The notes below the pieces were generated by a model that had not been told where the DNA came from, searched no databases, and was given only the letters and a program-made list of their open reading frames with translations. Both the position numbers and the translations under genes were made by a program. A DNA stretch of 64,000 nucleotides from Datnioides undecimradiatus (lineage: Eukaryota > Chordata > Actinopteri > Lobotiformes > Datnioididae), in contig WARS01000051.1 of assembly GCA_008933995.1 (NCBI GenBank), positions 3,410,001 to 3,474,000 of the forward strand. Reading direction: 5' to 3'. How positions within the stretch are numbered: position 1 is the first letter of the stretch; every line of letters begins with the position of its first letter. This document shows positions 4,457 through 61,200 of the stretch, one piece after another.

Positions 4457-5455
4457 GTAAGTCACTGTTTTAAAAACTAGTCATAAACAAATAATGGTGT
4501 CAGACACAGATTCCCAGTCCAAAACTTTGGAATACACGCTGGCTGCTCTTTGAGTTTAGTCAGGGCCTCATAGAGGGAGAGTCCCAAGTACCTCAACCAC
4601 CTCCTCCTACGCCACCTCTACCACCGGGACCGACAGACATCTCCCCGTGTCCCTCTTTAACCAACGTTATTTGAATATTTCAAATTTTTACTACCCTCAT
4701 TAATGGGACTGTTCGGAGGGGGTGGGTATTTTTGAATTCAGCATCAGATTGCATATTATTTTATACAGTAGCCTGTAGTGCAGTGCAACACATGTGCCAT
4801 TATTGAACCAAATCAACGCCTTCCTGATGATCCACCTTAATGATGTGTTTTCAAGTCAGACTTAAACATTGTTTCTTTTGCAAGGATATCTCTAAAAACC
4901 AAGCAGTTGGTTCATCAAAGCTTGCAGCATTTCTGTCAGCGTTTCCAGATTCCTTATTGACTTTTAAAACTATCTGAAGAGCAACTAAGATCATGTCTTC
5001 TGCACTATGAAGTCTCAGTAATTAGATGAATCTCTTACTCTTTCCTTCCACCCCGATGGTGAGAGGGTTCTGGGACAGCAGCTATTGTGGTTCTGGATGT
5101 TGGTTTTCTGCTAAATGAATTGTTAGAAAAACATGTAATAGACAGACATCAGAGGCACAACCCGGGGCTATTTCAGTGTTCCTTTTCACAATGGCAAAAA
5201 TCTAAAACTCTAGTGGAGAAATACTGTATGTATTTTTATTTTCCTCATGTTAGATATGTTGTGTTTATAAGCTGTAGATCACAAACTCCTTCTTAAGAGT
5301 CTTTAAAAAGTCCTGATTGAACACAGCACCTTGTTTTCCCCCAATTCCTGTTTTGACAGTATTACAACCTTAAAAGATTTTGTTCTGTAACAACACTTTA
5401 TTTCTGGAGCTCCAGATACCAGTTAAAAATGTAATCTTTTCCTGCTGCTCTAGAG

Positions 5456-8400
5456 ATGGAGGGAGAGAAGGAAAGACAGAGGCAGCAACGAGAGGAGAAG
5501 GATAGCAATGAGGCTGAAGACGAAAGGGCAAGTGATGACGATGCTGACAATGAAGAGGAGGAGGATGAATGCTCAGAGAGCGCAGCACTGGTGTGGCAGG
5601 AGGGCTATGGTGAGGACAATCTGGGCCTTCCCATCATGCATTGGGAGGCACTGAGCCTACGCATTGCTGAACTGGAAAAGCAAGAAGAGGAGAAGAAGGA
5701 GAAGAAGGCAAAGGTGAGAGATCATTGACCAGGAAAGGGGAACATCTGTTCTATTGTGTTAATAATAGTCCACAGAGGAGGAATTCTGAGTTCCAGGAAC
5801 AGAGATCACTATCTGCTTCAGTTACTGTGGTAACGTTAGCTAACCTCCCTTTTTTTTAGCTGACCAGAGTCAATATTGTTTTTATATTTTTATAAAAAAA
5901 TATATTCACAGTTTAGGTTTAAGTGAGATTCCAGCGAGCACCGGCAAAAGCAGACAGTCAAGATGAGAGCTGTTCAAGTGAGGTGAGCTCTAAATGCAGT
6001 CCATTGAAAAGTGATATCGATATCTTAAGGACTGGCTGAAACACCACTGAGTGTAAAAATACTGATGCAGCAGGAATTCACTCTAAGTTTAAGAGCAAAT
6101 GTTTTCTTCTGTTTGACCTGTAATAAGAGACCGCTCTACAGCGATACACTCTCACCACTCTGACAAGGTGATCTCCGTAGTTGCTTACTACACAAAGGAG
6201 GGTCAGAGACTGAGCCAGTGTTATTCAATATATAATATATGATATATAATAAAGTCGGTGACATTAGTCTTTCCAAGAAATTACAGGAGCAAATTGCAAT
6301 CACACCAGTGAGAAAAGAAAAGAAAAATTTTATCTATATGCCCTAGTCTGCTGTGTTTGTGTGCTACATGTGTAACACAAGTCTGGTGTGTATTTCAGAG
6401 TGGAGCGTCTCTGGAGCGAGGCAGGACTCCAGTGAGCTGGACAGAAGAAAGAGGGAGGAGAGCAGAGAGCTGGGAGGACAGAGACGATGCCTGCAACAGC
6501 CACGTGCTGGCACTCACCTCTCGGTACACACACACACACACACACACGTACAGATACACCCATACAATCATCCAACCTCTTATGAGACTGATAATTGCTT
6601 TTGAGCGTGGCATCATGTGTGTGATGTGGTTTTTCGGTTAGTGCTTATCATCTCTTTTTTTGTACAGCAGCAGCACATTTTGAAAACATTCATGAAGTCA
6701 TAATCACATCGAAAGACTTCTGCTGTGTTTGTTGTTGGGAGTAGCAATGGTTGGGGTCTGTGTTCATTTTGTCAGCTAGTTTAGATTTAGTCTTAATTGT
6801 TAGGTTTAGTCTTTTGAGTCAGAACATTTATTCTCATTAAACAAACAGGTGTAAATCAGTGGATGGGTGATGCACAGTCTGGTGAGGTCTTGGGTGGTGT
6901 GTCACCTTAGTGGAACTGTGGAACTGCTAGTCAGAGGTAAAGGATAGTTTTGCTTTTATGAAGCGTGGTTGTATGAGGAACTAAATTAGAGTGCACTTGG
7001 CATGCCCCCAGTTCAGAGAAGTAGTAGTAGTACGTGTAGATGGCTAGGTAACCAGGGCCAGGGTCGGCACAAACATATTTACCACCTAAAAGAACTTTGA
7101 CATGAAATATCAATGTCACTTAATATAAATTATATATGTAATATTTTCAACACTTAAGCATTGGCATTACATTTCGTACTTCTGTATTCCTACACATAAG
7201 TGCATCTGTGCCTGCAGCTGTGTTAAGTTGCACATCACCTGGTTAAGTCAGAAAGGGGACTGGTCAAACAAAGATGTGTTTTGGTAACCAAACAGATTTC
7301 ACCTTTATGTGAAACCATTGTCAAGTAAACCAGAACTCCCTGCTGTGATCACTCTTTTTTGTGTTAGGGTAAAATGTTGTTGGTTCAGTTATACCAACCA
7401 AGCACCATCTGCAATGTGCGCAGGATGTCCTCTGCACCTCCTCGCCATGTTTTCAATGCACTCTTCTGACTTGCTGTACCATGATGCAGTTCCAGTGTGA
7501 CGCTCTGCAAAGTTCGGGTTGCGTAAGACAAATTTCTCCATTTCTTCCTCAAATGCCTCAGAAAACAGTGCAGTCAAACTCAACAGTCTGACCCTGGAGG
7601 ACAAAGTCATGTTGCCTGCGAATGTTGGCGAATAGAACAGTTGGGAAGTCCTCCTGACCTGACACACAGATGTCCCTCTGCAGCTTTTCCACTGCTCAGA
7701 CTGCCGTTTGGACTCTGGGTCATATTCAATGACAGTCCCTGAAATGAAGCTTGGTTTTGAGGGAATGATGTTTGTCTATGCTGAGCTTTGAGGTCTGTGA
7801 TGACTGGTCTGATCTGATCTACATAAATTAACTTCTGTGGAAAAAGGCTCAGTCAATTCTGCCTGATCCCATTCACCCGCTGAATAGTGAGTTCATACTC
7901 ATACTGCTCAGTCAGCCTGCAGATGTGTTCTACCAAGTTGAAGAACTTAATTGTCCCTGATGTTTTGGCTTTATAAACAGATATATTAAGTATTTATTGT
8001 TTTGATGTGGTATGTACATTTAAGTGACTGTATGTTGTATTGCTGGCTCTACATACATACCAGCCTGTAACGTCAGCTCACCAATGACTCAGTGCATTGA
8101 TTTACAGCAGTTATTGCTAGCAATATGCCATGCTGTATAAACAGATGGAACAAACGCATAACTTTATCATTGCACCTTGTATATTGCTCTCTGGTCTTTC
8201 CTAGTTTATCCATACTAATACATTAATAAACACAAAACAGTTATCCATACAGTGAATGGCAAATTGACTATAGTGCCTTTCCAGTCTGGTGTCCACTCAA
8301 AGCACCTTGTACTATCTCTGAGGAGACCGCCCAACTCCTCTTATTCCTCGAGCATTATTTTGCCAGGCCTCACTGTCTAAACTATCTAATTTCCAGCAGG

Positions 8401-10774
8401 TGAGAACACATCACAAACAAACAGTCTTTGTTGTTTGCTTCATGTGTCAACTTCAGATAATATCTCTCAACCTGATCCTGCAGACACTGTTCATAGTTCA
8501 TATGAGGAAGTTGCTCAGGTCTCTTCTGCAGTGGACCACCACTGTTTCTCCATCTGTGTTGCAGGAGCCCTGGTGAGCCAGTGGGAGCAGAGTGGCTCAG
8601 AGAGTAAAGCTCTTTTTACGCTGCACAAAAAAACATCTGCTAACATCTGACTTTCGGCATCGGTGTAAATGCGCACATTTAGCTAGCATTTAAACCCATG
8701 TCTAATGATTCTGCAGCATTCACGGGTGTTTAGCAGGTCCAGCTCCAGTTGGCAGTGCCCCTCTTCCACACATGATGGTGTGAAGCAAGCAGATGCTGGC
8801 ATGCAACACAGCTGATTAGCCAGGGACATTACCACAGGTTACAGTCTGTGGAAACAACCAGTGATTTTAAACCTTGTATCATGCAAAATCCCAAACTGGT
8901 AAGACAGCAACGATGCCACATTACACCTCCATAACCCTTATTTGTGGTGTGATTGTGACTTTGTGACGTGACGGAATTTTTTGTGAGGGGAGGGAAAACA
9001 CTGGGTCAGCTTTAAGGGTGAAACAAAAACATGTATTTAAATGGAAGTTTAAAGTATATCTATATAAATGAAAGTCTTGTTCTTTGCCTGATTGGATCCA
9101 CAAGTTTTACATGTTTATATGAAACTAGGGTCCAGATGATGATGATGACATTATTAAGTGGTGTAGTAATGTCAAGGAAAATCTACAAAGGCACAATTTT
9201 TGTTCTCTACTAGAATACTACTTTGTTAAAAATACGTTTTTCTTATACTGTACATTGACTGTAGAGCTGTGAATATTCCTATCCCACCACACAACATTTA
9301 ATGGCACATACCCCTAGATGGAGGCCAACAAAATAAATCCACCACATAAAGCGTACCTGACTGTTGTGTATCCTCCAGCCTGCAGACACAGATGAATCTT
9401 CAGCTCTGCTTCATCAACAACAGTGAAAGTGAGGAGGAGGAGAAGGAAGAAGAGATCAGCAAAAAGGAAAACGGCAACACACAAGTAACTACCCCAAACA
9501 TAAATTATCGTTTATGTTTATTACAGTTTATATCAGATGAGCTAAAACTGTCTGTGGTGTAACTGTATGATTGCAGCAGTAAACTGCTAGAAGCAGTATA
9601 TAGTGAGAGAGACACTTTCCTCTTGTTATTTCATGTCTATCTTCTCCATGTTCTTTACTCACTGTTGTCCATCCCTCCTTATTTAGAGAGGGACTGTCCA
9701 GGTCCATAAGAATCCTCAGCCTCCTACCAAGCCAGAGAAGCCAAAATCCAGAGGTTTCAGGAACACTCTGAGGAACCTACGAGACAGATTGAGAACAGAC
9801 CACAAAACAGTGGTGAGTTAAGTCCCACCCTATTGCAGGGCCTAACTACTTGTTTCACAGCTTCACAGCTTTCCTCTCTCTCCTCCTCCCCTCTCATTCT
9901 CCTTTTCTGTACCCCCTTTTCAGACGGCAGCTCGTTCTGATCCTGTAGTCAAAAGAAGACATTTGGAGCGCAGTGATATGCAAAACTTGAGTATTAAGGA
10001 CCTGAATGCTCTGTCCACATCTCTCAGCCAGGCCATACAAGGTATCCACCTACACACAGTAATTACACCATCAATTATTTTCATTTTGGTCTTTCAACAA
10101 AAACACAAGTTAGTCTAATTTTTTTAATTTAAAGAAGGTGTTCGGGATCATCCAAAACTCTTTAAATATGGCCCACACATCAGGTCCAGTGAAATATTAT
10201 GTATGTGTTACCCAATTTGCACAAGAGCCAGTTTTCCTTGCAAGCCTCAATCAGTTTAGTTTCAGTCCAGTTCACAAACACAACTCAAAACTCCTCAGAG
10301 TTTTTCCATGGATCCCCACATAGTTCTGTCAAGACCAGCAAGCCCAGGAGAGACTCTGATGTTGATACACACTCAACCAGCGCACTATTCCCCCTTGTGA
10401 CACACAGGGCCTCCAGAGACTAGGCTAATGTTTGTTTACCACAAATTGTATATCATACAATTTTTGATGATTTATACTAATTACATTTTAGTCCTGTCTT
10501 GTCAACGAAACAAAGCACAGATTTCTTAAGTATTTTTATCAAAAATATGTTTTTAGCTTTCAGTGTCACTCATTTTGATCATAGAGAAAACATCATTGAC
10601 AGTCAACTTTCGTGACAGTTTTAGTTAATGAACACCAGTCGTTTTGAACTTCTTTTTTATCTGTCCACATCAGACCTGAGCTCAGAGCTGGTGGGTCGCC
10701 TCCAAGTCCGAGACCAGCTAAGGACGGAGCAAGACGCCATGCTGCTGGAGGTCCAAGATCTGACATCCCTTTGA
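5456..10774 (+). CDS. Schwannomin-interacting protein 1-like (SCHIP1 C-terminal domain), six coding exons
   Basis: Coding exons: 5456-5713, 6399-6523, 9379-9484, 9687-9812, 9924-10041 and 10674-10774 (TGA). All junctions are GT-AG with matching phases (0,2,0,0,1), giving about 277 aa. The N-terminal exon is acidic and ends in a Lys/Glu-rich helix. Exon 4 carries MNLQLCFINNSESEEEE, matching the NLQLCFIND-S motif of SCHIP1. The last exon ends in a helix containing RDQLRTEQDAMLLEVQDLTS, matching the conserved SCHIP1 C-terminal coiled coil (RDELHTEQDAMLVDIEDLT). Known family role: cytoplasmic adaptor binding the NF2 product schwannomin and, as IQCJ-SCHIP1, ankyrin-G at axon initial segments. The protein is much shorter than human SCHIP1 (487 aa), so it is either a short isoform or a divergent paralogue. 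The ATG at 5,456 lies 2-3 bases after the acceptor; a start in an earlier unseen exon is possible. Confidence 0.87.
6526..6547 (+). repeat. (CA)n microsatellite at a splice donor
   Basis: An uninterrupted CA run follows the GTA of the donor of SCHIP1-like exon 3 (exon ends 6,523, donor GT at 6,524-6,525). The donor is therefore GTACACACAC and its downstream positions are part of the repeat. Confidence 0.9.
8253..8345 (+). repeat. Degenerate copy of a dispersed fish repeat
   Basis: The phrase with CTTTCCAGTCTGGTGTCCAC and CTCAAAGCACCTTGTACTAT resembles the start of the fuller copy at 19,507-19,778 (GCTTTTCTAGTCGTCTGACC, then CTCAAAGAGCTTTACACTAC). It lies within an intron of the SCHIP1-like gene. 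Similarity was judged by eye. Confidence 0.4.
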
Positions 10775-17200: not shown

Positions 17201-18616
17201 ATGTCATCCAGAGGAGGACTTCCTCCCAACATCAGTGTCTCCGTACTCCAAGACTTCCTTGGTTACCTAAGACCTTCTCCCACTACCCTTCCATCTCCAT
17301 CTTGCAGCATAGATGAGTCCTACAAGTACATCTTCCTCCCCATTTGTTATTCTTTCACATTTATCTTCAGCATTTCCCTTAACTCTGTCATTCTTTACCG
17401 TTCTCTCCGTCGGACAAAGCGGTGGAATGCTTCACTCATATACATGGTTAACCTGGCCTCTACAGACTTCATGTATGGCCTGTCTCTGCCATTCCTTGTG
17501 GCCAGCTACATCATGAGAGACCGCTGGATCTTTGGGGACTTCATGTGCCGCTTAGTTCGTTTTCTCTTCTACTTCAACCTATACTGCTCTATCTTCTTCC
17601 TCACTTGCATCTCTGTCCACAGATACCTCGGTATCTGCCACCCAATGAAAGTCATTACATTGGAGACCAAAAAGGCTGTTAAGTGTACTTGTGTCTTGGT
17701 TTGGATTGTAGTGTTTGCTTTGACCTGCCCTATATTCCGCTTTGCGCAGACTGGTCACGTGGCAAGATTGGCAGGGCTTGGTGGTAATGGAAGCAGTAAT
17801 ATAAGCAATATAAATGGTAATGCCAGCAATGGTAACTTGGGTGGGGTCATTGAGGAGTACCAGAATTGTTGGGACGATGCCATAGATAAGGAGTTTCCTG
17901 ATTACATACCCTATGGCATCATACTCCATTTGCTGGGCTTTTTTGTACCTTTTTCCATCATTGCTTGGTGTTACTCTCATGTTGTTCTGACCATATTTCG
18001 GACTCTGCATTCTCAACCCTCATCCAACAGAGCCCAGAGAAGGAAAGGTCATAAAGGAATAGAGAGACAAGAGAGAAATAGCCCTGCAATCATTGGAAGA
18101 GGAAGAAGAGGAAGCAATGGAATATTGCGAGCCCTGGAAAGAGATGAAGGAATTTCCATTTTCCTGGGTGCTCACTCTCCTTATGCCAATCGCAGACGGA
18201 AATCTATCAAGACCATCATTACCATCACCCTTCTCTTTGCTCTGTGTTTCTTCCCCTTTCATGTTACTAGAACCATCTTCCTCCTGTTGAAAGTGGCCAA
18301 GGGAGTCCCATGTCACACTATGACAACAGTGTCCATGTGCTATAAGATTACAAGGCCTTTAGCATCATTCAATGCATGGCTCAATGCCCTCCTTTATTTC
18401 CTTATTAAGGACAAAGGGGGAGCTCACTGCTGCCAGGCAGGAAACACCACCACCCAACAACATGGTGGGCTTCTATTACCTCTGAGGATGATGGGAAAAG
18501 AGGAGGATGTAGAGGAGAGAGAGATAGAGGAGAGAGTTGAGAAAAAGGACAATGAAGCGTTTCAAAACAGTACATCATACATGAACAGAGCAAAAGTCAA
18601 ATATATAGTTGAATGA
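17201..18616 (+). CDS. P2Y-family purinoceptor-like GPCR (single coding exon)
   Basis: Uninterrupted 471-aa frame with seven hydrophobic segments: TM1 ~43-66, TM2 ~78-101, TM3 ~113-138, TM4 ~160-180, TM5 ~237-263, TM6 ~336-363, TM7 ~380-402. P2Y-class hallmarks: the TM3 stretch FLFYFNLYCSIFFLTCISVH followed by RYLGICHP (HRY at 140-142), the TM6 motif FPFHVTRT (353-358) typical of nucleotide receptors, and KITRPLASFNAWLNALLYFL in TM7. Cys116 and Cys223 would form the TM3-ECL2 disulphide. Sequons occur at N10 and at N196, N200 and N207 in an unusually long Asn/Gly-rich ECL2. ICL3 carries a basic insert (~275-330) and the tail is Glu-rich. Closest by eye to P2RY1/2/4/6-type receptors; the subtype is not assigned. 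Expected role: plasma-membrane receptor for extracellular nucleotides. Oddity: TM7 has NALLYF where most P2Y receptors have DPxxYF. Confidence 0.9.
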   Translation: MSSRGGLPPNISVSVLQDFLGYLRPSPTTLPSPSCSIDESYKYIFLPICYSFTFIFSISLNSVILYRSLRRTKRWNASLIYMVNLASTDFMYGLSLPFLVASYIMRDRWIFGDFMCRLVRFLFYFNLYCSIFFLTCISVHRYLGICHPMKVITLETKKAVKCTCVLVWIVVFALTCPIFRFAQTGHVARLAGLGGNGSSNISNINGNASNGNLGGVIEEYQNCWDDAIDKEFPDYIPYGIILHLLGFFVPFSIIAWCYSHVVLTIFRTLHSQPSSNRAQRRKGHKGIERQERNSPAIIGRGRRGSNGILRALERDEGISIFLGAHSPYANRRRKSIKTIITITLLFALCFFPFHVTRTIFLLLKVAKGVPCHTMTTVSMCYKITRPLASFNAWLNALLYFLIKDKGGAHCCQAGNTTTQQHGGLLLPLRMMGKEEDVEEREIEERVEKKDNEAFQNSTSYMNRAKVKYIVE

Positions 18617-28134: not shown

Positions 28135-28967
28135 CACAAGAGGTAAAGATATACCTTCATGTAAGTATTGATGCATCAGTATTTGTAGCCATGTGTTCAA
28201 AGCTTTTTTTCCCTACACGTATTTCTTGCAGTCTTTTCTTGACTGTGTCAGCGCTTTCTTTTTCTGGTGTCCATCTGTTTCAGTTAGCATGGAGATTTGA
28301 TCCATGGTGTTTTAAGAAGTCAGCCTGCTGGCTTATCATACTTTCATGTTGTTTACAGTGTAAATGATAATGTCTTCAGAAAAGTAACATAACTGAAACT
28401 TATAATGTGAAATAAGCCTTGGAAAATAAATGAGCAGGTTGATCTACACCCCAATTTTTTTCCTTTCTAAGCACTTAGATACAATGAGGAAAGACATATC
28501 TTGAACAATCATTCTACAGTAAGCAGTGGTTCTAATGCACCCTTTATTTCTAGTTCCTTTTCCTTACTCCATCTATTCTGCACTCTTCAACCATTTTGTT
28601 TGGGTAAGATTTCCTTATAGTTGCTACAGAACACTTAGGAATGAAGGTGTGAGTGTCAATCCTCATCAGAATAATTTATTAATTCTGTAATTTACAATTA
28701 ACAGATTGTTGTACTTTTGGCAAAAGTAAGCTGCTAAAAATATTATGCTTATTTATATGAGGATATGGTGTGTTTTATGTCAATTAAACTGTTTACAAAT
28801 TAATGGATAATTAATTTCCAATAGGAAAATTGTGTAAATACAAAGAAAGAAAAAAGCACAATAAATGTTGTTGTTGTGTCTCTGGGCGCTGAAGTGATGT
28901 GTTTTTCTCCAGAGTGCGATCAGTCTGAGGCAGTAAATCTGACAGATTCATAGTCTCAGTGTGTCCA

Positions 28968-29046
28968 GGGAGCACTTTAGCAGCACATCATGTTTTGCAG
29001 ATATGTGTTTAATCACTCCAAATCATTATGTGCTGCAACCGTGAGC
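28968..29046 (+). ncRNA. miR-15/16-family hairpin 1 (miR-15/497-like)
   Basis: The 5' arm starting at 28,978 reads TAGCAGCACATCATGTTTTG and continues CA. It has the AGCAGCA seed and is very close to miR-15b. The 3' arm (about 29,018-29,039, CAAATCATTATGTGCTGCAA) pairs with it over about 20 positions with a few mismatches, leaving a loop near 29,001-29,015; a CAC/GTG basal pairing extends the stem. Only the + strand gives the canonical TAGCAGCAC start on the 5' arm. Family role: repression of cell-cycle and anti-apoptotic mRNAs. Position and orientation relative to bap18 match MIR497/MIR195 relative to human C17orf49. Confidence 0.88.
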
Positions 29047-29151
29047 CATGGGATTCCCAACAGCACACTGTAAACAGCTCCTGGTCAAATTTCACAGATC
29101 TGTTACTACTACTTGTCTTCTTAAAGGTCAGAGGTGATCCATGTCTTCTTC

Positions 29152-29176
29152 TGTGTGTGTGTGTGTGTGTGTGTGC
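29152..29176 (+). repeat. (TG)n microsatellite
   Basis: Clean TG run about 110 bases after the first miRNA hairpin. Confidence 0.95.
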
Positions 29177-30124
29177 ACGCATGACTTTCTGCTCTGTGTA
29201 AGCAGTTTCATCTGCATGTGGAACATCACAACTTTTTAAGAACCTCCACATTGTCTATTATTTATTTTGTTCAAATATTTTTGCAGAAAAAAATCAGTAA
29301 CATCAATATCACAAAAACATGCTACAGACACCTGCCAAGTGTCAACACTAAAAAGATGCTGCCTTCCCCTTTTCTGGTAAAATAAAGATTTTGTGGGTCT
29401 CTATATCTATATCAGTTACTACTGAGAGGTAATTCTCTGTACGTCTCCCTAACCAACCTTGGAACCTCACATTTTCAGGAATGAGCCTAGCTTATCCTTA
29501 GCAAAATAAAACTTAATAAAAAGGTGACACTCTACAATGCCATAGATATCAACGTGTCACTGGAGTGTGGCAGATATGTTTAATGTGTTTTTTGTTGGGG
29601 TTTTTTTTGTTTTTGTTTTGTCAGCCAGATATATCAAAGCCTCCCTGTAAGATATTGACCGTCACCATGAGTTAGTTTCTATAAATGCCAAAAGTGGCTG
29701 AAATCAATGAAAACACAGATGATGAATTATCCAGTTTAAATACTGAACATTCAAAGTGAATGTGCACTGTATTTGAGTGAATGAATCCATCTATTGTGTT
29801 TTTCTGATCATATGATTTTAGAGCAGAGGAGCCAGCGGTTGACACTTTCTTACAAGGGAGTTTGATATTTTGTTTACCCCTTTTTTATTTAAAATTTCTA
29901 AGAATGACTGAAACACGGCTAGCCCTAATCAAAATAACACTGCCTAAACCAATCCTTTATTCCAGACTTTAACAGATGTATAGTTTGAACAAGTACAAAC
30001 AACAGTGTTTACTGTATTGGTACATAGTTGGAAAAAAATGTCAACAGGCAGCCTAACACAGTATGTGTCAGTGGATGTTAGTTGATTTTCTTTGTGTGTG
30101 TGTCTGTGTGTTGCTGCAGTGTGT

Positions 30125-30192
30125 CAGGCTATAGCAGCACATCATTACTGGTAGTTCTCTTTGCATTGCCAGTATGATATGTGCTGCTCCTG
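30125..30192 (+). ncRNA. miR-15/16-family hairpin 2 (miR-457/195/16-like)
   Basis: The 5' arm from 30,132 reads TAGCAGCACATCATTACTGG and continues TA. It has the AGCAGCA seed, with a 3' half like miR-457/miR-16-type sequences (…ACTGG/…ATTGG). The 3' arm (about 30,169-30,189, CCAGTATGATATGTGCTGCT) pairs with it apart from a small internal loop, and CAGG (30,125-30,128) pairs with CCTG (30,189-30,192) at the base. It lies 1.15 kb after hairpin 1 on the same strand, as expected for a bicistronic miR-15-type plus miR-16-type cluster. The opposite strand would also fold, but its 5' arm would start GAGCAGCAC and match known members less well. Confidence 0.83.
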
Positions 30193-32587
30193 TCAGTCAC
30201 TCACTCTTCAACACCATCTTCCTCCAACAGAGAAAGAAAGGTTTCATGCATTTCTTATAATCCATGAAAAAATACATTTGTAATTGTCATTAGACAAACA
30301 TATTGGTATATGAAGGCTGGCAGGGATGCTTGTTTATTAATAAACATAATTGCTTGTTTACAAATAAAAGTCCAATATTTAAAAAAAAAAAAAAGCCTAC
30401 TGTTTGTTTTATTTCTTAATACAAAACTGATTGAGGTGGATGACAGAGCCAGGCGTCATTTGGGAAGATTTTACAAAAGAATCACTTTTCCTTGTAAAAA
30501 GAAGCATTTTAAACTCTCCAGTGTAAAATGGTGTTACAGTCATGAAACCAAAACAAACAAATGAGGGACAACATGTTGACCTGTGAGCTTTATAATTGCT
30601 GGAAGATGTACTGAACTGTGGTCAGACAGAATGGACGTTTCCCCCTGCTTTCAGCCTTTACACTAAACTAACTGCCCCTGTCCAATCTCCCTGTGACGAC
30701 ATTGATACTAATCCTGTGATCTACTTCTCAGAAAGACAGTGAATAAGAATATCGTCGTATTATGTTTGGTTTCGCAGAAGAATGTACACTATCTCCTTGA
30801 AAAAGTATTTTGTCTTGTGAAGTGTATGACATGGCCCGTTTCTGTAGCTTCTACTACAGGTTTACTGGCAAGCTAAAGCTAAAAGAAGAGATTTTTATAA
30901 CTCACATTTAAAATATTCTCGGCCAATTACTCGGACATGAATCCAAACTGATGTAAAAAATATAAACAGGTAAGATAAGGAAATCGAGGGGAAGCAAAAA
31001 TGTCATAACAGGAGTGTTTCATTTTGTTAATACAGCTGAGAGTTTCTGCTGCATTGTGTCTGGTTTTCTGAAAGAAAAGCCAGAAGACGTCTCTCTTCAA
31101 ACATTCTGGATGGTCCTACAAAACAATAGTCATAGTCAATAGTCATTGAGAAGAGAAAGAAATTGCCTAAAATAATTAGTTTTAAAACTTCAAGTAAATA
31201 AAAAAAATACAACAAAAGAAAACTTGAATGATTCAGAGACGTTTCGGACAGTGCCAGCAAATCTCACACGTAGGATGCAGTGGACTGGTAAGAACTCCTG
31301 TGTGACGCAACACAAATTTAGTATCTGTCGTTTCTATTGGCTCCAAGGGATGTGAAATGTCAACGGGACAGCAGAGGAAGGTCACTGGGATTCATGATGA
31401 GGCTTGAGTCCAGGTTCAGGTTATCTACAGAGACAACAAAATCCACATTTGTACACCGCATTTACAGAGAGTTATTCTAAAACTGTCCACAGAAAAAACA
31501 ATAGTGTTAGTGCATCTATCAGCACTTTCTGTCTTTGTGGCTGCAAATCTTAAAACATCTCACAAATGTATACTTTTTTAAAAACACTTAATTTCTTAAA
31601 ACATCTCGCATCTACAGTTTTTAAACAAACTGAAGGAAAAGCAGTATTTTTGGATTAATATCAAACTAGTTCTCTGGTGAGCATTTGGGGCAGCAGGATA
31701 ATATACTTGTGGTATTGATTTTATATAAATAAGAGGGTATGTTCAGACAAAGGATGTCAGCCAGTGCAACAGCGTGGCCCAGTGATTTGTTTTAATAGTT
31801 TTTGGACATCAGTGCCAATGGGGAAATATCTACTGTATCTGGCTTTGATATAAGAGATTTTTGATTTGTTTTCATTTAGAAACTGCACAATTGGTTGGCA
31901 AAAACAATAACATAGTAACGCAGTGGGTACAGATCATGTTTTTCAATGATTGATGAATTGTATGTAACATTTGCTTTGATGTATGATGTGCAAATGTTCA
32001 CTTGCGGAGACCAGTAGGATTAAAGGCATTGTATGTAAAATCACTTTAGGATTCTCAGACTGCAGTTTGCTCTATGGGTCATAGCCAATGATGAATCTCC
32101 ACATGAATCTTGGGTTTGACAATGGTTCAGATGTTTGGTCTCTGCTGTATTGGGCAGAACTGCATACGTGGCAGTGCAAGTGGTCCCAAAAACAACCACT
32201 AACTCTGGTCCCACTGGTGGTCACCTGACATTACTCTGTATGCTCACTCACAACAGTTACAGCTAGCAGCTGTTGCTTCCTTGTTACTGAGCTGTGCTGC
32301 GTTCAGAAGAAGCAGGCACTGACCTGAAAAAATTTTGGTCACACATTGTACACATCAGAATAATTTGAAAGATTCCACTTTAAACCAACATAGCTATTTT
32401 TAATAGTGAAAAACATAAATCATCTGACTCAGAGGGCTGGGTTTTTTTTCAAGCAAACTTTTTTTCTGATAACCAGAAGAAGCTACAGGTGTCAAATGCT
32501 CAATGTCTGAGCACCAACAGCTTTAAAAGGACTTTAAATCAGAATCTGATCATAGAGAAATTATGACATGTGTTTCAATAACTATTT
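30193..32587. other. Interval between the miRNA cluster and the 3' end of bap18
   Basis: AT-rich and gene-poor. A poly-A run lies near 30,380. An ATTAAA on the minus strand (32,588-32,593, just beyond this interval) is a candidate bap18 polyadenylation signal. I found no third AGCAGCA-seed hairpin. Confidence 0.45.
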
Positions 32588-32615: not shown

Positions 32616-35513
32616 TCAAAATCCAACTTCATACAAAATTCCTCCCAAATGAATCACTTTGTACGGTAGCAATTGTTCATGAACTTCACCTTGATCAAAG
32701 TTATTGAGTTTTTTGGAGTTTGATCCTTCACCCAGTCCCTCGATGTCCACAAGATCACTGTTGACATCTGAGTCATTCAGAGCACTAAGGGTCACATCTA
32801 AACACACACACAGACACACACACAGACTATAAATGCAAAGAACTGTTTATAAACATCAAACAAAAATATAATACCAGTTAAAACAAGGTAACATGATAAA
32901 AAAAAGAAAAAGGAATTACAATTAATTTCAATAAAATACACTTGATACTACTAATGAAGATAAAAACTGTATGACGAATTGTTGTAGATTCACACACAGG
33001 ATTCTATGTAAGTGCTAATATTGTAATGAGTAACCAAACGTGAAACACTTACACAAAAATAATGTGCTGCGCTGTTACATATGATGTTGGCATTGATGTT
33101 CTGCCAGCTGTAGATTTAAATATAATAAAACAACCCCCTCTTTTTTGTTATTTCACTGTGTTATTACTGTCTGATTTGATTCCTGCAAAAAATGAAACCA
33201 TAAACTGGTCAAAATCTATAAATGACCAGATAATCTCTTATACATTTGACTAAATAAATGTGTTTTATACATTTTTACAGTTTGATGAAGTCAGTTATCC
33301 AATGCATCCTTTTACATTCAAGAAACCTGAGTTAGACCACAAGCATGGCAAAGCTTAGTTTCAATGATATAATTTTGAGATATGTAAATGATAAATGTTG
33401 CACAGATTAAAGTATATCTGGATTTTTTTTTTTTATATTTTTGGCCTAGCACCTAATGGCTTGGGGTTTTTTTGGGGATGTTTCTATATATATTCTTTAC
33501 TAAACGTGTCAAAACAAGATTAGACACTAAATACATATAAAAAGTGATATTCTCTCTGCAATACTGAAGTTCTGTTAACATTTTCATCAACAGTTTTGAT
33601 GGGAGTGAAAGTGGAAAATTTAAAACAGAATACGTTATCTTGTACAGATTTGTATTACGTGTGGATCCCATTAGATTTTCAGACTCACCTGCAGTCTTCT
33701 GTTTCTTCAGGGAGGGCTGGCGGGAGGGGGATCCCTGCAGTCCTGACGACACAACAACCTGAGCTGTGGGTACAGAGATGATGGCTGGAGTGCCCTGTGC
33801 TGCCATGGCAACAGTACCAGCAGCTTTCTTGATGACCTTTTTTGATGCGTCAGAGGAAGCAGGCAGTGCTCCGTCTTCATACAGCTTCCTCTTCACTGTG
33901 CTCTTTGTGTGACAACTGGAGGGAAAATAGGAACTAAACTGATTTTAATATTTTTTATACCAAGTTAACAGCAGCATCCACATGAGTTAGATTTCTTTAT
34001 AAATTTGTCAAAGTGTACAAGTGAAGGACTTCTTAGTCATTGTACCACGCTTGTAAGCACACAATCACAGATTCACTACTGTATACAGAGACACGTAACT
34101 GACACCAAGCTTTTTATCTGACATAAAGTAAGATGGTCAACAAGTGCATCCAATATACAAGATACGAACAAAACACCTGCGCTCAGTTAAACCATTTGAT
34201 GGACAAGAGAACCACACTAAACAAGTGCGTCAGAGCGAGTCTCAAAAAACTTCCACCCACAAAAATGTGGCCTTGGGTCCAGGGCTGTGGAGTGGGGCTA
34301 TTTAGTCACATTTTGAAACCCTTTTGGAGACAAAATTGTACTACAAGGAGCATTACCAGGTCTTGCAAATTTGCCTCATGAAACACTAGGAAGGAGTCAG
34401 GGATGTGCTGAATAATTAAAGCCTGTATTATTAAAATGCTAAGATGCTTCTGTTTTTTTTTAGTGGTACTTCTAAACATTTTGGTGACCTTTATTATTAT
34501 GAGGCAGCATCTCCTGGCCTGAGTCAGAGGCAGACAGAGAAACGGCACAGGCAGAGTGAAGAACTACAACTACACCTATTGTAAGTGCATGAAAATGGCT
34601 GTGATTATTGTAATGCAACTTCTAAAAGATTTGACAAGTGCTTTTATAGCCCATTTAACCCAAAAATCCAGGTTATGTGATGCTCCTGTAGACATATTTA
34701 AAAAAAAAAAAAAAAAAACATTCATCATCATAATGTGTTTGGGTATTTATGTGTGTTGGGGTTACCCTGCAGGACTGGAGTCTGCCACTGGGTGAAGCTG
34801 CATGGTGAGCTCTCCTAGTTTGGTGAAGGCTGCTCCAGCTGCAGAGAAGATCTCACCAACCTGTGGAACACACAACAGCATCAAAATCCTGTCACAGTGC
34901 CTTGTACCACTTTCGATTCAGAATGTTTGCAGGGAAATGTAAGACTCGCATGAGAAGTAAAGTGGTAGTTCCACAGAGACAGTCAATCAACAGATAGTGG
35001 CCATAATGAACATGCACAATGCACAGGATCAATCAAAACTTTCAGGCATATGTGATTGTTTGAATGCGTGTCTCCCAAACCAAGCTGGCAACAAGCAGAG
35101 GAGTCGACCTCAGGTTGCAACAGGAGAATGGTTAAATGGTTAGATGAAGTAAGAAATAAGCAATAGAGATGGGCAGTTCATTATATTCAGAAACTATCTT
35201 AACTATTTATCCTTCACTTATCTGAGGCTCACTGTCGTGTCTAGTCTTTTGTGGAGCTATTGTGTGAGGAAGCTTTTGGGTTTTAATAAAAACTTGCGTT
35301 TAGACATGGCAAACTAGGATGCATCAAAGCAGCCCGGGTGAACTTGTGATCCAGAAGAACTTGCCCGAGTCTCTGATCTGAATCAAAGCAGCTTTAAGCA
35401 CTCGGTGACCGTAAATTCACTCGGCGAGGGTCAGAGTACAAACAGGAGGATGCTGTTCACATAGGACTAACTAGGTGTAAAAAGCCACTTACTTTAGTGG
35501 AAGCTGAGGTCAT
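32616..35513 (-). CDS. bap18: BAP18 chromatin-complex subunit (C17orf49 homologue), SANT exon not found
   Basis: Exons in transcript order: 35513-35493 (MTSASTK), 34860-34766 ([20 protein letters not shown] and on to [11 protein letters not shown]), 33915-33689 ([11 protein letters not shown] ... PSLKKQKTA) and 32797-32616 ([20 protein letters not shown] ..., TGA). These match human BAP18 exons 1, 2, 4 and 5. The exon for the SANT segment (human ...KWTETEIEMLRAAVKRFGDD...) should lie between 33,916 and 34,765, but neither that nor a divergent relative is visible. Joining exon 2 to exon 4 preserves phase 2, giving an in-frame 174-aa product. The C-terminus runs about 24 residues past the usual KKLNFDQ ending. 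Known role: subunit of BPTF/NURF and MLL1-type complexes that reads H3K4me3-marked chromatin in the nucleus. It may be a diverging copy, or the missing exon may reflect an assembly fault. Confidence 0.85.
32802..32824 (+). repeat. (CA)n microsatellite forming a bap18 acceptor tract
   Basis: On the bap18 strand this is a GT-rich tract ending TGTTTAG directly before the last coding exon. The usual polypyrimidine tract is replaced by a TG repeat. Confidence 0.85.
34698..34718 (+). repeat. Poly-A run
   Basis: About 20 consecutive A residues within the bap18 intron from which the SANT exon appears to be missing. Such runs are places where assemblies can collapse or break. Confidence 0.9.
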
Positions 35514-55232: not shown

Positions 55233-58200
55233 TTATGAGCAGTTTGAGCTAGAGGCACCATCTTCATCATCAGGGGGACAGGCAACAAAATCAGCCAACA
55301 TTGAGGCCATGGTGTCGTCATCCAGCTGAGGAACAGACAGAGACAGCTGTTAAAACATGCTGTGATCTGACATTAGAGATATGTCTGATGCTGAAAAACA
55401 CACATATGCTCAAATCCAAAATCAGTCAACAGTTTATACCTTTTTTTTCTCAGTGCTTTGCTCCACCTCTTCCTCCCGGTGCACCACCTCTCTCTTCCGC
55501 TTCACTCCTTTTCCTTCCTCTCCATCACTCTCTCCGCCTCTTGCTACTTCTGTCTCCTGGTGCTCAACTTTCCCTTTCTCTTTTTTCTGAGTGTCTGCAC
55601 CCTCTTGCTCTTTTGTACTCTGGACTGTTGAGGTTTCAGGACCTGCAACTACAACATCTCCTTCTTGAACAACTACTAGTTGTTCCTCTAAATCACTGGA
55701 TGGCTGGTTATCACTTGCACTGGTTTCCTGTGCAGTTTCAGGTCCTGACGCCTGTTGAATTGAAGAGAGTCAGCTTTAGGTGGAATCCCAAATTTCAGGG
55801 ACAATAAAATCTTCAATTTGTGGTGCAAAAAGATGGATACTGGTTGAGAATGTATAAATATTCAGTATCCTTACCTCCGTAGACCCCAGATAATGTAAGA
55901 AGCTCAACATTATACTTAAATCTCTGTTTATTCTGCTCTTGCCCCAGAATGATTTAAGAAATTACTGAGACAAAAGTTCTTGTCATTAAACAAGTTTGTT
56001 TTTTTTCCAATTGCTGTTTTTCACCAAAAACAGGCCAAACAAGAACACTTGCAAACACTTGCACAGAACACTTGCAAAAGTGACGTTGCCTGAACAGCAG
56101 GCTGGACTGGAGCACCAACACTGATGCTGTGTACAAGAAGGGGATGAGCAGACTCTACTTCCTGAGGAAGCTCAGATCCTTCAACGTCTGCAGCAAGATG
56201 TCGGAGGTCTTCTACCAGTCTGTGGTAGCCAGTGCACTCTACTTTGCTGTGGTCTGCTGGGGGAGCAGCATCAGTGCTAGGGACGCCAGCAGGATCAGCA
56301 AACTGATCCGCAAGGCTAGACAAGCTGTGGGACACGATCTGGAGGAGTTTGAGTCAGTGAGGAACCGGAGATCACTGAACAAACTGCTCTCCGTCCTGGA
56401 CAATCCATCCCTCCCCCTCCATGACACAATACAGAGACAGCGGAACTCTTTCTCTAACAGACTGATTCAGCTCCGCTGTCGTAAACGGTTCAATAAATCA
56501 TTTCTACCGTTTGCAATAAGACTTTACAACAGCTCACCACTGTGTGACAGATGAGGCACGCTTTGTCCATCCTCATCTGTTTACTGTTTCTCCCAAAACA
56601 TCACGCAATTTTACACATCTGTTCTTCTTACGCTGATTTATGAAAATTTGTAAATATTTTAGTTCTATATTCTATTTTTTATCTTATTCAGTTTTTATCT
56701 TTTGTACTTTTTATGCTATTCTGTGCTGCTGTAAGAACCAAATTTCCCTCAGGGGATTAATAAAGTACTTCTATTCTATTTACCAGTGAAAATGGAATAA
56801 ACATAAGGTTAATCAGACTACATGATTAAACACAACTTCATTCATATTATTATTATGTAATTAAGCTCTTGAAACTACATTTTTCATACAATTCCATCAA
56901 GAACAGCATGGTGGACATGTGTGACAAACCCTGAGCACAAGGCTGAGTTTTCAGTGGCAGTGGCTGAGACAGTAATGCTAGAAATGTGGAGAACAGAATG
57001 ATGAGTGATTGGAGTTCTGCACATTGTCAGCATCTGGCTAATATTTATAGGGAAAACTCTATGTAGAAATATGGCTTATTACAAATGCTTCACCTTCTCA
57101 AGAAAATACTGTGAAAAGTCACTTCCTGACTTCCCTTAAATCCTTTTTTGTATTTCAGAGTACCAGAGTTTTCATTAAGCTTCAAATGAGACCTATTAAG
57201 GCTGTGGTAAATACCTGTTGATTATCATCGGCTGGGCATTCTTCTGAGGCTGCTGTCGGCTCAGTCTCATTGGCTCCTTGCTCCCACATGCTGCTTTCCT
57301 CCTGCAGCCCACCTCCTACCTCTACTCTACCTGTTCCACCTCTCTCATCCTCTGCTTCCTCTCTCTCCTCCAGTGCTCCTCCAGTGACACACAGGATCTG
57401 TGGCATGGTTGGGTCATCCATCCTTTCACTTTCATCCTCCTCTCCCTCCCCGTCCCGTGCCTCTTCCAAGACTCCAATGCTCTCAACCTCTTGTACCTTC
57501 ATTCTGTCCTCTCCAAACAGCGCTCTGTTGCTCTGGATCTCCTCTATCCCTCCCTCTGCTTCCCCCTCCACATTAAACGCAGCCACCCCACTTTCATCCA
57601 ATCCTGCTTGGAGCATCTTCCCTTCTTCTGTTGCTGCCTCTCCAGGCTTGTCCTCTGCTCCCTCCAGTGGAGGTATATCCCCATCCTCCTCCTCTTCTTC
57701 CTCCAGTTCTTCCCCCTCCTCTTCATCATAATCCTCATACTCCTCCCCATCAAAAAACTCTTCCTCAGCAAAATCACTCACTTCTTCCTCTTCATCTTCC
57801 TCATCCATCCCTTCCTCCTCTTCCTCCAGCTCTTCATCCTCCTCCATGTCCTCCTCTTCTTCCTCCTCATCATCAGTGCTATTGATATTAATCACACCAG
57901 AGTCTTCATTGCTAGCCGGCAGTGGCTGTTGCTGGTGAAGGTGCCGCCCCTGCTGGCTCAGCTGATTCTGCAACTGGTGCATCTGAAGTGGTAAACCAAT
58001 GGGACCAGGCTGGCCTGGTGTGGAGGGCTGCATCAGCATCTGCTGGAGCTGGGGTCTGCCAGGCAATGAGTCCCCAAGACCACTGGGTGGAGCTGGGAGA
58101 GTAGTGGCATTCAAAGGTGGAACTAGGGAGACCACCGAGGCGCCAGAAGGCGGGAAGGAGTTGATAGGGGTGGTTGAGGTGGTGAGTAGGGGTGAAGAGG

Positions 58201-61200
58201 TGGCGAGGTCGTTTGGGAGTGAGACTCCATCTATTGTAGTTGTTGTTGCTGTGGTGGGAACCATGGTGATGGATTCTCCTCCGGATAGTGTGACTGTAGA
58301 GCCCCCTGATGCAGCAGGGGCCATGCTCTGAGAGTTTGCAGCTGCCGTTTCATCTTGCTGGTTCTCCATGCTGAGCAGACCAGGAGGAACAATGACCACG
58401 CTATCGTCTGAGTCACTAGCCAGAGAGATCTCCACATCCTCTGCTTCCTCTCTGTCATAGCGGACAAACACGGGTCTCTGCCCCTCTGGTGGGCCAAGTC
58501 CAGCAGGGTCCTGCTGATGGTGTGTGTGTGGGGACAGGATCATATCTCCTGGTGTGGGAGTCTGGCCTGGCAGGCCAGGAACAAGGGAGAGGTGGTTCTC
58601 CAGAGAGCCCAGCAGGGAAGAGGGGCCCAGGCTGAGGGAGTGGCGTGTGGAAAAGGGAGGACCCGGAGTGGGGCCTCCTAAGAGGGTTGGCAGAGTGAGT
58701 CCAGGGGTAGGTCCCTGGGAGGACGAGAGAACAGGAGCACTGGGCGTGGTTTTCAAGGTGAGTGGTGGCAAAGGGAGGGCGATGGAGGAAGTGCGGGGGT
58801 GGAGCAGGGAGTTACAGATGGTCAGAGCCTCAGTACAGAACGTAGATACCTGAAAGGCGTGGGGGGGGCACAGAGGTGCTGGATGAATGTATGACAACAT
58901 GTCTATTGTCACAAGAACAGAAGCTGTGTTCAAGAAATCATCTTTCAGTCAGCTCAACCTGTACCAGAATCCTACAGTTTCTACTGTTTACCTAGCAATA
59001 TTGTAACAGAATTGTAACAGATCAAATTGCTACTTATTACGCTGAGGTGTTGTAAAATCCATTTCATACTACTAGAATTTAGTTTATTGATTTGAGTTTT
59101 AGTGATGGAAAAAATATATATGTTCTCCAAACCGACCAACATACTTGTCCCACTCTGGAGTCTCTCTCCTACACGCTTACTCTCTCCCTTAGAACATTCA
59201 CCTTGAGGTTCCGGTCGGTGCATCCGTTGCTGAGGATGGACACAGCACAGGTCAGAGGAGGAGGCCAGGAGGGTGGTGGGACCAGGATAAGAGCCAGCAA
59301 TAATCTGAAAATCCACATGAATAGAACACTGATATGAATCCAGCTACTCTGCACTACATAGCCAACCAACTTCATTTTGCAGTTAACAATATCTCACGCA
59401 CATTTCCACGTATGAATGACAAGGTTGAATTCATTAACAAAATAACATCTGCTCATGTTTGTTTCAAACCAAAAATGGAAATGTTCACTGGCCATCTGAA
59501 GTCAATCTAAACAATTTTTACTTTTTATGTCATTTAAAGACACAAAAATCATTATTTATTAAAACATTTTATCCAAACACATATAAATCTGACGTGAAAG
59601 AAGGTACCTGTATAGCTCTCGTCGGGTGAGAGCACTGCTGTACTGCCCACTGATGCCCCCTGCAGATTCACATGAAGTGCTGCTGCTGGACTGTTGCTGC
59701 TGTAGACGTACACACAGTGGTAGCGCCACGTCATGGAGACGCTTTTAAAAAATAAAAAAAAAAAAGGCAGGAAACAGAGACAATGTTAGCTATTGAAAGG
59801 AAAGAATGAGGTGTCAAGTGAGTGGTTATGTGATGAAGGCAGAAGAGAGACACATCGGGTCTCACCATCATATCACCACTGTATCAACTCCATTATACAG
59901 AAAACCACAGAAAAAACTGAAAACATGACTCTAATCCTGAGCAGTTTAGCATTTATGATGTCTATCAGTATAGTTTGGTTAAGAAATCAAATTTGTTTTT
60001 TTGCACGACCATGTAACAATGTCATACTGCCATTTACCTTGTGTATATCATCCTTTAGCAGTGTACCACTGGTCAGTATGATTTGTCTCAGTGCTGTAAA
60101 AAAAGGAAAACATCTGTGAAATTACACCAAACCCACAGAAAACCGATAAAAATCACACTACTATTATGTAAGATTGTCAAGTTGAGGCAGCTTCTGACCC
60201 CTGAGGGCTGAAAGGCAAGTATCCTGATTAGCCAAAAGGTCTCCTTTCCTCTGGAGTGATGGTCCAACTCCGTCAGCCATGACCAATGGTTTTGTCCGCC
60301 GTGGGCCTGGTTTCCCTCCTGGAACAGCATCTGCTGACAGACCAACCCGGAGCTGCAAGAGATGATAGACAGACAGACACTCAGTCAGTCAGATATAGGA
60401 GTAGCTTAAGACAACACTTAACTGGGAAACACACTGGGCACACCTGCATTACCTTCTGACTGTCACAGTTTTGTGCCATCTTCCACATGGCTTTATACCC
60501 ATCTAGGAGTGTTTCAGACACGCAGCATGTTACCTCTTAGATGTTGCTGACATGCTCAGGTTTCGTTTATTTGGTCATTTTTTTCTTGATGCTTGTGCTT
60601 CTACCATGGGTAGGGATGCTACCTAGTTCAACTGTTTCTTTTCTGTCTGTTTTTATGATCAGGACTCTGAGTGGGGTGTTATATAAAATGCAATGCAGCC
60701 AGACCTGGTCTACTCAAGGAGTTAATGTACTTGCTGCTGCATATCAATGTCACACAAACCTTTGGTTCCTCTAATGTTCACAAAGTGAATCTATAAAACT
60801 GGGAAAGCTTATTGTAAAATATATGGTGCTCAAAATCATTCAAACTAACTCTGCAGTAACTGAACTTACCTTGACAGACTCCAGCCCTGGTGTGATGTCA
60901 CCAAGCAGGTGGCTGAACAGGAGCTCTGAGTGGCCAGGGCTTCCCTGAAGTATGCTAGCAGAGGCTCCAGCCACCTGCACCCACAGCTCTAAAGTTCTGT
61001 ACACTGACACACGCACTGAGCTGTGGATATGGAAGAGACGTACAAGAAAAATGCTGATGAATCACAATCTCACATTGCCACATTATCCATATTCTGAACC
61101 CCCTCCTCCCTCTATCCAACTAATTTTTAATACAGTCTAGGGTTTTATTTTTAAATAAAGAGAACTTTAGCCTTATTTCAGACCTATAGTCCTTAATGAA

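Follow-up and report, generated by a model that had tools for sequence, protein, structure and literature searches.

Genes and features of the locus

To describe the locus, we analysed a window of 64,000 nucleotides from the genome of Datnioides undecimradiatus (G000:C8:3410001-3474000; the genome searched comprises 581 Mb in 497 contigs). The window carries two hairpins of the miR-15/16 family on the + strand and the gene bap18 (C17orf49) on the - strand (Table 1). The hairpins run toward the 3' end of bap18, in the convergent arrangement that the original prediction had described, and the predicted 3p end of hairpin 2 lies 1169 bp from the bap18 stop. Some of the ends of the bap18 exons in the window are estimates, and no SANT/Myb exon was found in this copy of the gene by tblastn, relaxed settings included. 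Among the other genes, PELP1 is present in the window at 57185-58948. The analysis also revealed a P2Y purinoceptor 3-like receptor encoded by one open frame at 17204-18613 (+), which shares 84-87% identity with proteins of Symphorus, Epinephelus, Centropristis and Morone, and an open reading frame at 56084-56551 (+) with a Pfam ALKBH8_N match (E 3.2e-11), which we take to be a piece of a non-LTR retroelement.

Table 1. Positions in the window of the microRNA hairpins, their arms and the bap18 exons.
Feature	Position	Strand	Basis
Pre-microRNA hairpin 1, 15-type (teleost miR-15b-like; MIR497 positional counterpart)	28965..29051	+	Rfam mir-15, fold, genome-wide mir-15 search
Hairpin 1, predicted 5p mature arm UAGCAGCACAUCAUGUUUUGCA, seed AGCAGCA	28978..28999	+	Sequence and family register; predicted ends
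Hairpin 1, predicted 3p arm	29019..29040	+	Partner of the 5p arm with a 2-nt overhang, CNNC 18 nt downstream; predicted
Pre-microRNA hairpin 2, 16-type (miR-457a; MIR195 positional counterpart)	30123..30198	+	Rfam mir-16, fold
Hairpin 2, 5p mature arm UAGCAGCACAUCAUUACUGGUA	30132..30153	+	22/22 with sequenced Coregonus lavaretus miR457a-5p
Hairpin 2, predicted 3p arm	30169..30191	+	Alignment to the printed whitefish miR457a-3p and the salmon precursor; predicted ends
bap18 (C17orf49), last coding exon, ending DNLNLDSSLIMNPSDLPLLSR	31360..31424	-	Translation; 77-bp stretch shared with the second bap18 region (84% identity)
bap18, exon	32691..32798	-	tblastn
bap18, exon, ...KKQKTA	33690..33905	-	tblastn; ends estimated from frame
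bap18, exon	34765..34863	-	tblastn; in the second copy the SANT exon comes next, none found here
bap18, first coding exon, MTSASTK	35490..35513	-	tblastn

Identification of the two hairpins

Both 5p arms begin with the 14-mer TAGCAGCACATCAT, and their starts are the only two exact sites of this motif in the window. When up to two mismatches were allowed, five matches were found against 0.87 expected, a number reached by 0 of 100 shuffles; one of the five is the 3p arm of hairpin 1 itself, read on the other strand. The shorter TAGCAGCAC gave a weaker result, with three matches in the window and 3 of 100 shuffles reaching that number. The miR-15/16 family is defined by AGCAGC at nucleotides 2-7 of the guide (PMC6394552, section 5), and both 5p arms carry this motif at that place.

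In the whole genome there are 16 copies of the 14-mer, as could be expected of hairpins that arose by chance or from a repeat, but among the eight sites scanned with Rfam a microRNA model was matched at the two window sites only, the six sites outside the window giving no match at E 0.01. In addition, the guide of hairpin 2 is among the sequenced microRNAs of whitefish (PMC4938405). This explanation was dropped, and we regard its probability as negligible.

The Rfam scan of the whole window returned hairpin 2 as its sole match, with a mir-16 score of 36.9 bits, above the gathering score of 36.5. Its fold has an energy of -34.9 kcal/mol (z -6.1; z -3.9 with wider flanks, 101 nt), which was reached by two of the 3198 windows of the same length (sliding, step 40, both strands), and by stability alone it is the only remarkable hairpin. 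Hairpin 1 obtained 56.5 bits with the mir-15 model, 0.8 bit short of the cut-off of 57.3 (E 1.6e-13 for the 1.5 kb scanned), and folds over 28965-29050 at -27.3 kcal/mol (z -3.1; z -2.6 with wider flanks, 101 nt), an energy reached by 61 of the 3196 windows of its length under the same sliding scheme (step 40, both strands). These analyses bear out the original prediction of two well-paired hairpins on the + strand whose 5p arms share the same start (28978 and 30132), with a 15-type member followed by a 16-type member according to the family models. The predicted spacing of about 1.15 kb is also correct, since the 5p starts are 1154 bp apart, which is wider than in mammals.

The scores of the sense strand exceeded those of the antisense strand with the mir-15 and mir-16 models for every hairpin listed, and with the mir-15 model the values were 56.5 and 51.1 bits for hairpin 1 and 43.2 and 35.8 bits for hairpin 2. 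Model scores taken alone are weak evidence of orientation, because the mir-16 model is passed by two known members in antisense as well and because hairpin 1 scores better in antisense with the mir-497 model (24.1 bits, against 20.7 bits in sense). Both mir-497 values are far below the cut-off of 62, and miR-497 was for this reason ruled out as a sequence-based name for hairpin 1.

In its 5p arm, hairpin 2 agrees with dre-miR-457a in 18 of 22 positions and with human miR-195 in 16 of 21. The agreement is complete (22/22) with miR457a-5p of the whitefish Coregonus lavaretus, a sequenced microRNA printed as uagcagcacaucauuacuggua in a table of PMC4938405. The miR-457a of marine medaka matches in 21 of 22 positions, nucleotide 1 alone differing (PMC4211694), and that of carp in 17 of 20 (PMC3267759). 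Judged by its sequence, hairpin 2 is the known fish microRNA miR-457a. Comparison with the printed salmon precursor showed an unchanged 5p arm and a loop that differs in length and letters, while in the 3p arm three adjacent bases differ (30177-30179), which are located in or beside the bulge opposite guide nucleotides 10-11 of hairpin 2.

For hairpin 1, the 5p arm is closer to miR-15b than to miR-497: it is identical in 20 of 22 positions to both human miR-15b and zebrafish dre-miR-15b, and in 15 of 21 to human miR-497. Zebra finch miR-15c, as printed, matches in 19 of 21 positions (PMC3585881). The exact 5p guide was absent from the open-access literature searched, in exact and looser spellings, and the G variant UAGCAGCACAUCAUGGUUUG is found there in human and bird studies (by title). 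That hairpin 1 has become a relic, decaying or unprocessed, beside a working miR-457a is unlikely, given that its arms still pair, its CNNC motif is kept and its 5p arm resembles human and zebrafish miR-15b, even though a relic would agree with a score under the mir-15 cut-off, with the 61 windows at least as stable, with a guide absent from the literature searched and with a spacing of 1154 bp, compared with 259 and 230 bp in the two other clusters of the genome.

A CNNC motif is placed 18 nt past the predicted 3p end of both hairpins, that of hairpin 2 being one among several in a C-rich stretch, and the basal UG at -14 of the 5p start is absent from both. To look at constraint, we aligned hairpin 2 with the two other 16-type hairpins of the genome and the salmon precursor, and found that 8 of the 25 predicted pairs have changes on both sides that keep the pair, with 5 of 25 broken or gapped in one sequence. 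The alignment of the three 15-type hairpins of the genome showed such changes in 7 of 28 pairs, another 8 of the 28 being broken in a single sequence. These compensatory counts are small because the alignments hold four and three sequences.

Other miR-15/16 clusters of the genome

The search of the genome with the mir-15 model produced 12 matches that correspond to six hairpins, each on both strands, arranged in at least three two-member clusters, and the search with the mir-16 model found the three 16-type members. The cluster counts are lower bounds, since the candidates scored were the best 58 of 96451 for mir-15 and the best 63 of 59643 for mir-16, and a fourth, divergent cluster may exist. 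The pair on contig C463 has SMC4 coding pieces both upstream and downstream and is therefore inside smc4. A piece of IFT80, named by its PDB match, lies within 10 kb of it; the Pfam label THOC3 for the same piece was far below the cut-off and was rejected. The pair on contig C468 lies within 10 kb of SPRYD7 and of a 411-aa RING/B-box TRIM protein, read as TRIM13. We take the smc4 and TRIM/spryd7 loci to be the homes of miR-15b/16-2 and miR-15a/16-1, respectively.

Like the window pair, both clusters consist of a 15-type member followed by a 16-type member on the same strand. They differ from it in their 5p arms, which share the first 7 bases in C463 and the first 10 in C468, whereas the first 14 bases are common to both guides in the window (28978-28991 and 30132-30145). 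Within nucleotides 1-14, hairpin 2 differs from the 16-type guides of C463 and C468 at nucleotides 10, 12 and 14, and at each of these sites its new base is the base of hairpin 1. The whitefish miR-457a guide has the same bases at the three sites (PMC4938405). The identity of the guides over nucleotides 1-14 could be a result of gene conversion or of selection, a possible homogenisation, and three sites are too few to tell these apart.

Probable orthology to the mammalian MIR497/MIR195 locus

In mammals, MIR497/MIR195 is convergent with C17orf49, as the window pair is with bap18. A printed gene list of the goat gives RNASEK, C17orf49, chi-mir-195, chi-mir-497 and BCL6B (PMC11874128), and a 1-Mb interval of the pig holds PELP1, C17orf49, mir-195 and mir-497 together (PMC12318406); PELP1 is a gene of the window as well. 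Read from bap18 outward, the window presents the 16-type and then the 15-type hairpin, that is, the goat order of mir-195 and mir-497. The pair is found beside and convergent with bap18 with the 195-type member nearer to the gene, an order that is printed for the goat. With the smc4 and TRIM/spryd7 loci taken as the homes of miR-15b/16-2 and miR-15a/16-1, each of the other ancestral clusters has its place elsewhere in the genome. Both of these homes hold a pair, and the pair of the window occupies the one ancestral home that is left, C17orf49.

These data make it very probable that the two hairpins are canonical miR-15/16-family genes, most likely on one transcript, and that they represent the orthologue of the MIR497/MIR195 locus in teleosts. 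Orthology is called from the position beside bap18 and from the accounting for the other clusters, not from the mature sequences; hairpin 1 is not called miR-497 by sequence, as its mir-497 score is far below the cut-off. It is quite improbable that the pair is instead an additional, fish-specific copy of either the miR-15a/16 or the miR-15b/16 cluster, with its bap18 adjacency and its likeness to mammals coincidental, because the gene, the order and the convergent orientation match the mammalian locus and because the smc4 and TRIM/spryd7 loci each still hold a pair. An extra duplicate would agree with hairpin 1 being nearer to miR-15b types than to human miR-497. It would also agree with the two 15a/16 clusters of zebrafish, on chromosomes 1 and 9 (PMC2427041).

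The proposed orthology to MIR497/MIR195 goes together with several differences. Like the mammalian locus, the window pair joins a 15-type to a 16-type member next to C17orf49, in the order printed for the goat. It differs from that locus in its spacing of 1154 bp, which is wider than in mammals, and in its mature sequences, which resemble miR-15b and miR-457 more than human miR-497 and miR-195. A further difference is that rnasek and BCL6B were not found within the window: rnasek gave no match with a probe that finds it beside the second bap18, and a BCL6B-type C2H2 pattern gave none in the six frames of the window, by regular expression only. The match with MIR497-MIR195 beside C17orf49 proposed in the original prediction consequently stands for position, order and convergence and falls for the mature sequences, which are unlike miR-497 and miR-195. 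Its statement that the mature sequences are not exact copies of the members it could name agrees with the guide of hairpin 1, unmatched in the open-access literature searched; the 5p arm of hairpin 2 is identical to whitefish miR-457a. Its suggestion of possibly unannotated fish miR-497/195 orthologues is supported as to positional orthology and needs correction in that the members are already known, as miR-457a and miR-15b types.

Relation to known fish microRNAs and predicted function

The names in use for the members in fish are miR-15b, for the type of hairpin 1, and miR-457a, for hairpin 2. Table 3 of PMC2427041 lists zebrafish miR-457a and miR-15b as a polycistronic pair on chromosome 7, where polycistronic means no more than 3 kb apart and similarly expressed, and the make-up of the cluster has therefore been in print since 2008. 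The zebrafish cluster has the same two-member composition as the window pair. Section 5 of a 2018 review, crediting earlier work, describes miR-195 and miR-497 as mammal-specific (PMC6394552), and in the open-access literature we found no statement equating fish miR-15b/457 with miR-497/195, a relationship that a curated database (MirGeneDB) may already record. If the pair is the orthologue, the mammal-specific pair of the review exists in fish under other names, and the work on fish miR-15b and miR-457 (regeneration, smoltification, toxic stress) becomes directly comparable with that on mammalian miR-497/195, a link that the names hide. In fin and limb blastema, for instance, miR-15b is up in zebrafish and bichir, whereas the axolotl entry gives it as down, and the bichir blastema also shows a rise of miR-457a (PMC4927183).

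If expressed in Datnioides undecimradiatus, both hairpins would be carried by one + strand primary transcript running toward the 3' end of bap18, and its processing by Drosha and Dicer would release two 22-nt 5p guides that have the seed AGCAGCA, their exact ends being predicted. Argonaute loaded with these guides would repress mRNAs bearing UGCUGCU sites, and with a single seed the two guides would have the same target set, by analogy with the family probably composed mainly of cell-cycle and survival genes. The precedents described for the miR-15/16 family are inhibition of proliferation and cardiomyocyte arrest (PMC6394552, section 5).

The second bap18 copy and a probable duplication of the locus

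The genome contains a second bap18 gene (C285:1789051-1790073), which has the SANT exon (97% over 35 residues). Close upstream of it, on the opposite strand and head to head, lies what we take to be rnasek (L013 7551-9101, -). In the 30 kb scanned around this second copy, Rfam found no miR-15/16 hairpin, and 0 of the 22 AGCAGC[AG] sites correspond to AGCAGCAC. A microRNA pair at this place was rejected: at E 0.5 the only matches, mir-3149 and mir-568, did not reach their cut-offs, lay on both strands (L014 157-287) and were read as low-complexity sequence. Besides the bap18 exons, the two regions have a stretch in common, with window 10677-10764 corresponding to L015 6488-6575 (81% over 88 bp), which fits an old duplicated segment that would go back to the teleost genome duplication.

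The search for bap18 proteins gave 1048 matches, of which 120 were listed and eight examined, and the use of a probe without the SANT exon biases this list. The fish proteins of the closer type (P0121, P0122, P0126 and P0131) are without SANT; three of them are labelled isoform X2, so that a SANT-bearing isoform is possible for these three, and P0131 is labelled X1. Among the proteins of the other type, P0229 has SANT, and P0221, P0222 and P0224, all X2 isoforms, lack it. A precomputed SANT/Myb domain is present in P0229 only, among the 120 matches listed of the 1048. Loss of the SANT exon is likely common to the window-type bap18 of fish, and the bap18 duplicates look like a case of parts divided between copies. 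A tentative scenario, which we consider possible rather than probable, is that the locus predates the teleost/tetrapod split, that after the fish duplication the microRNAs stayed with one bap18 copy, which lost SANT, while the other kept SANT and rnasek without the microRNAs, and that the 16-type guide took the bases of its neighbour (nucleotides 1-14) through gene conversion or because selection acted on its central part.

We also noticed a second, unnamed gene that is seemingly common to both bap18 regions (window 5435-5725 and 10677-10764; L015 4556-4846 and 6488-6575), with a similar peptide, by eye, around PIMHWE and RIAELEKQE.
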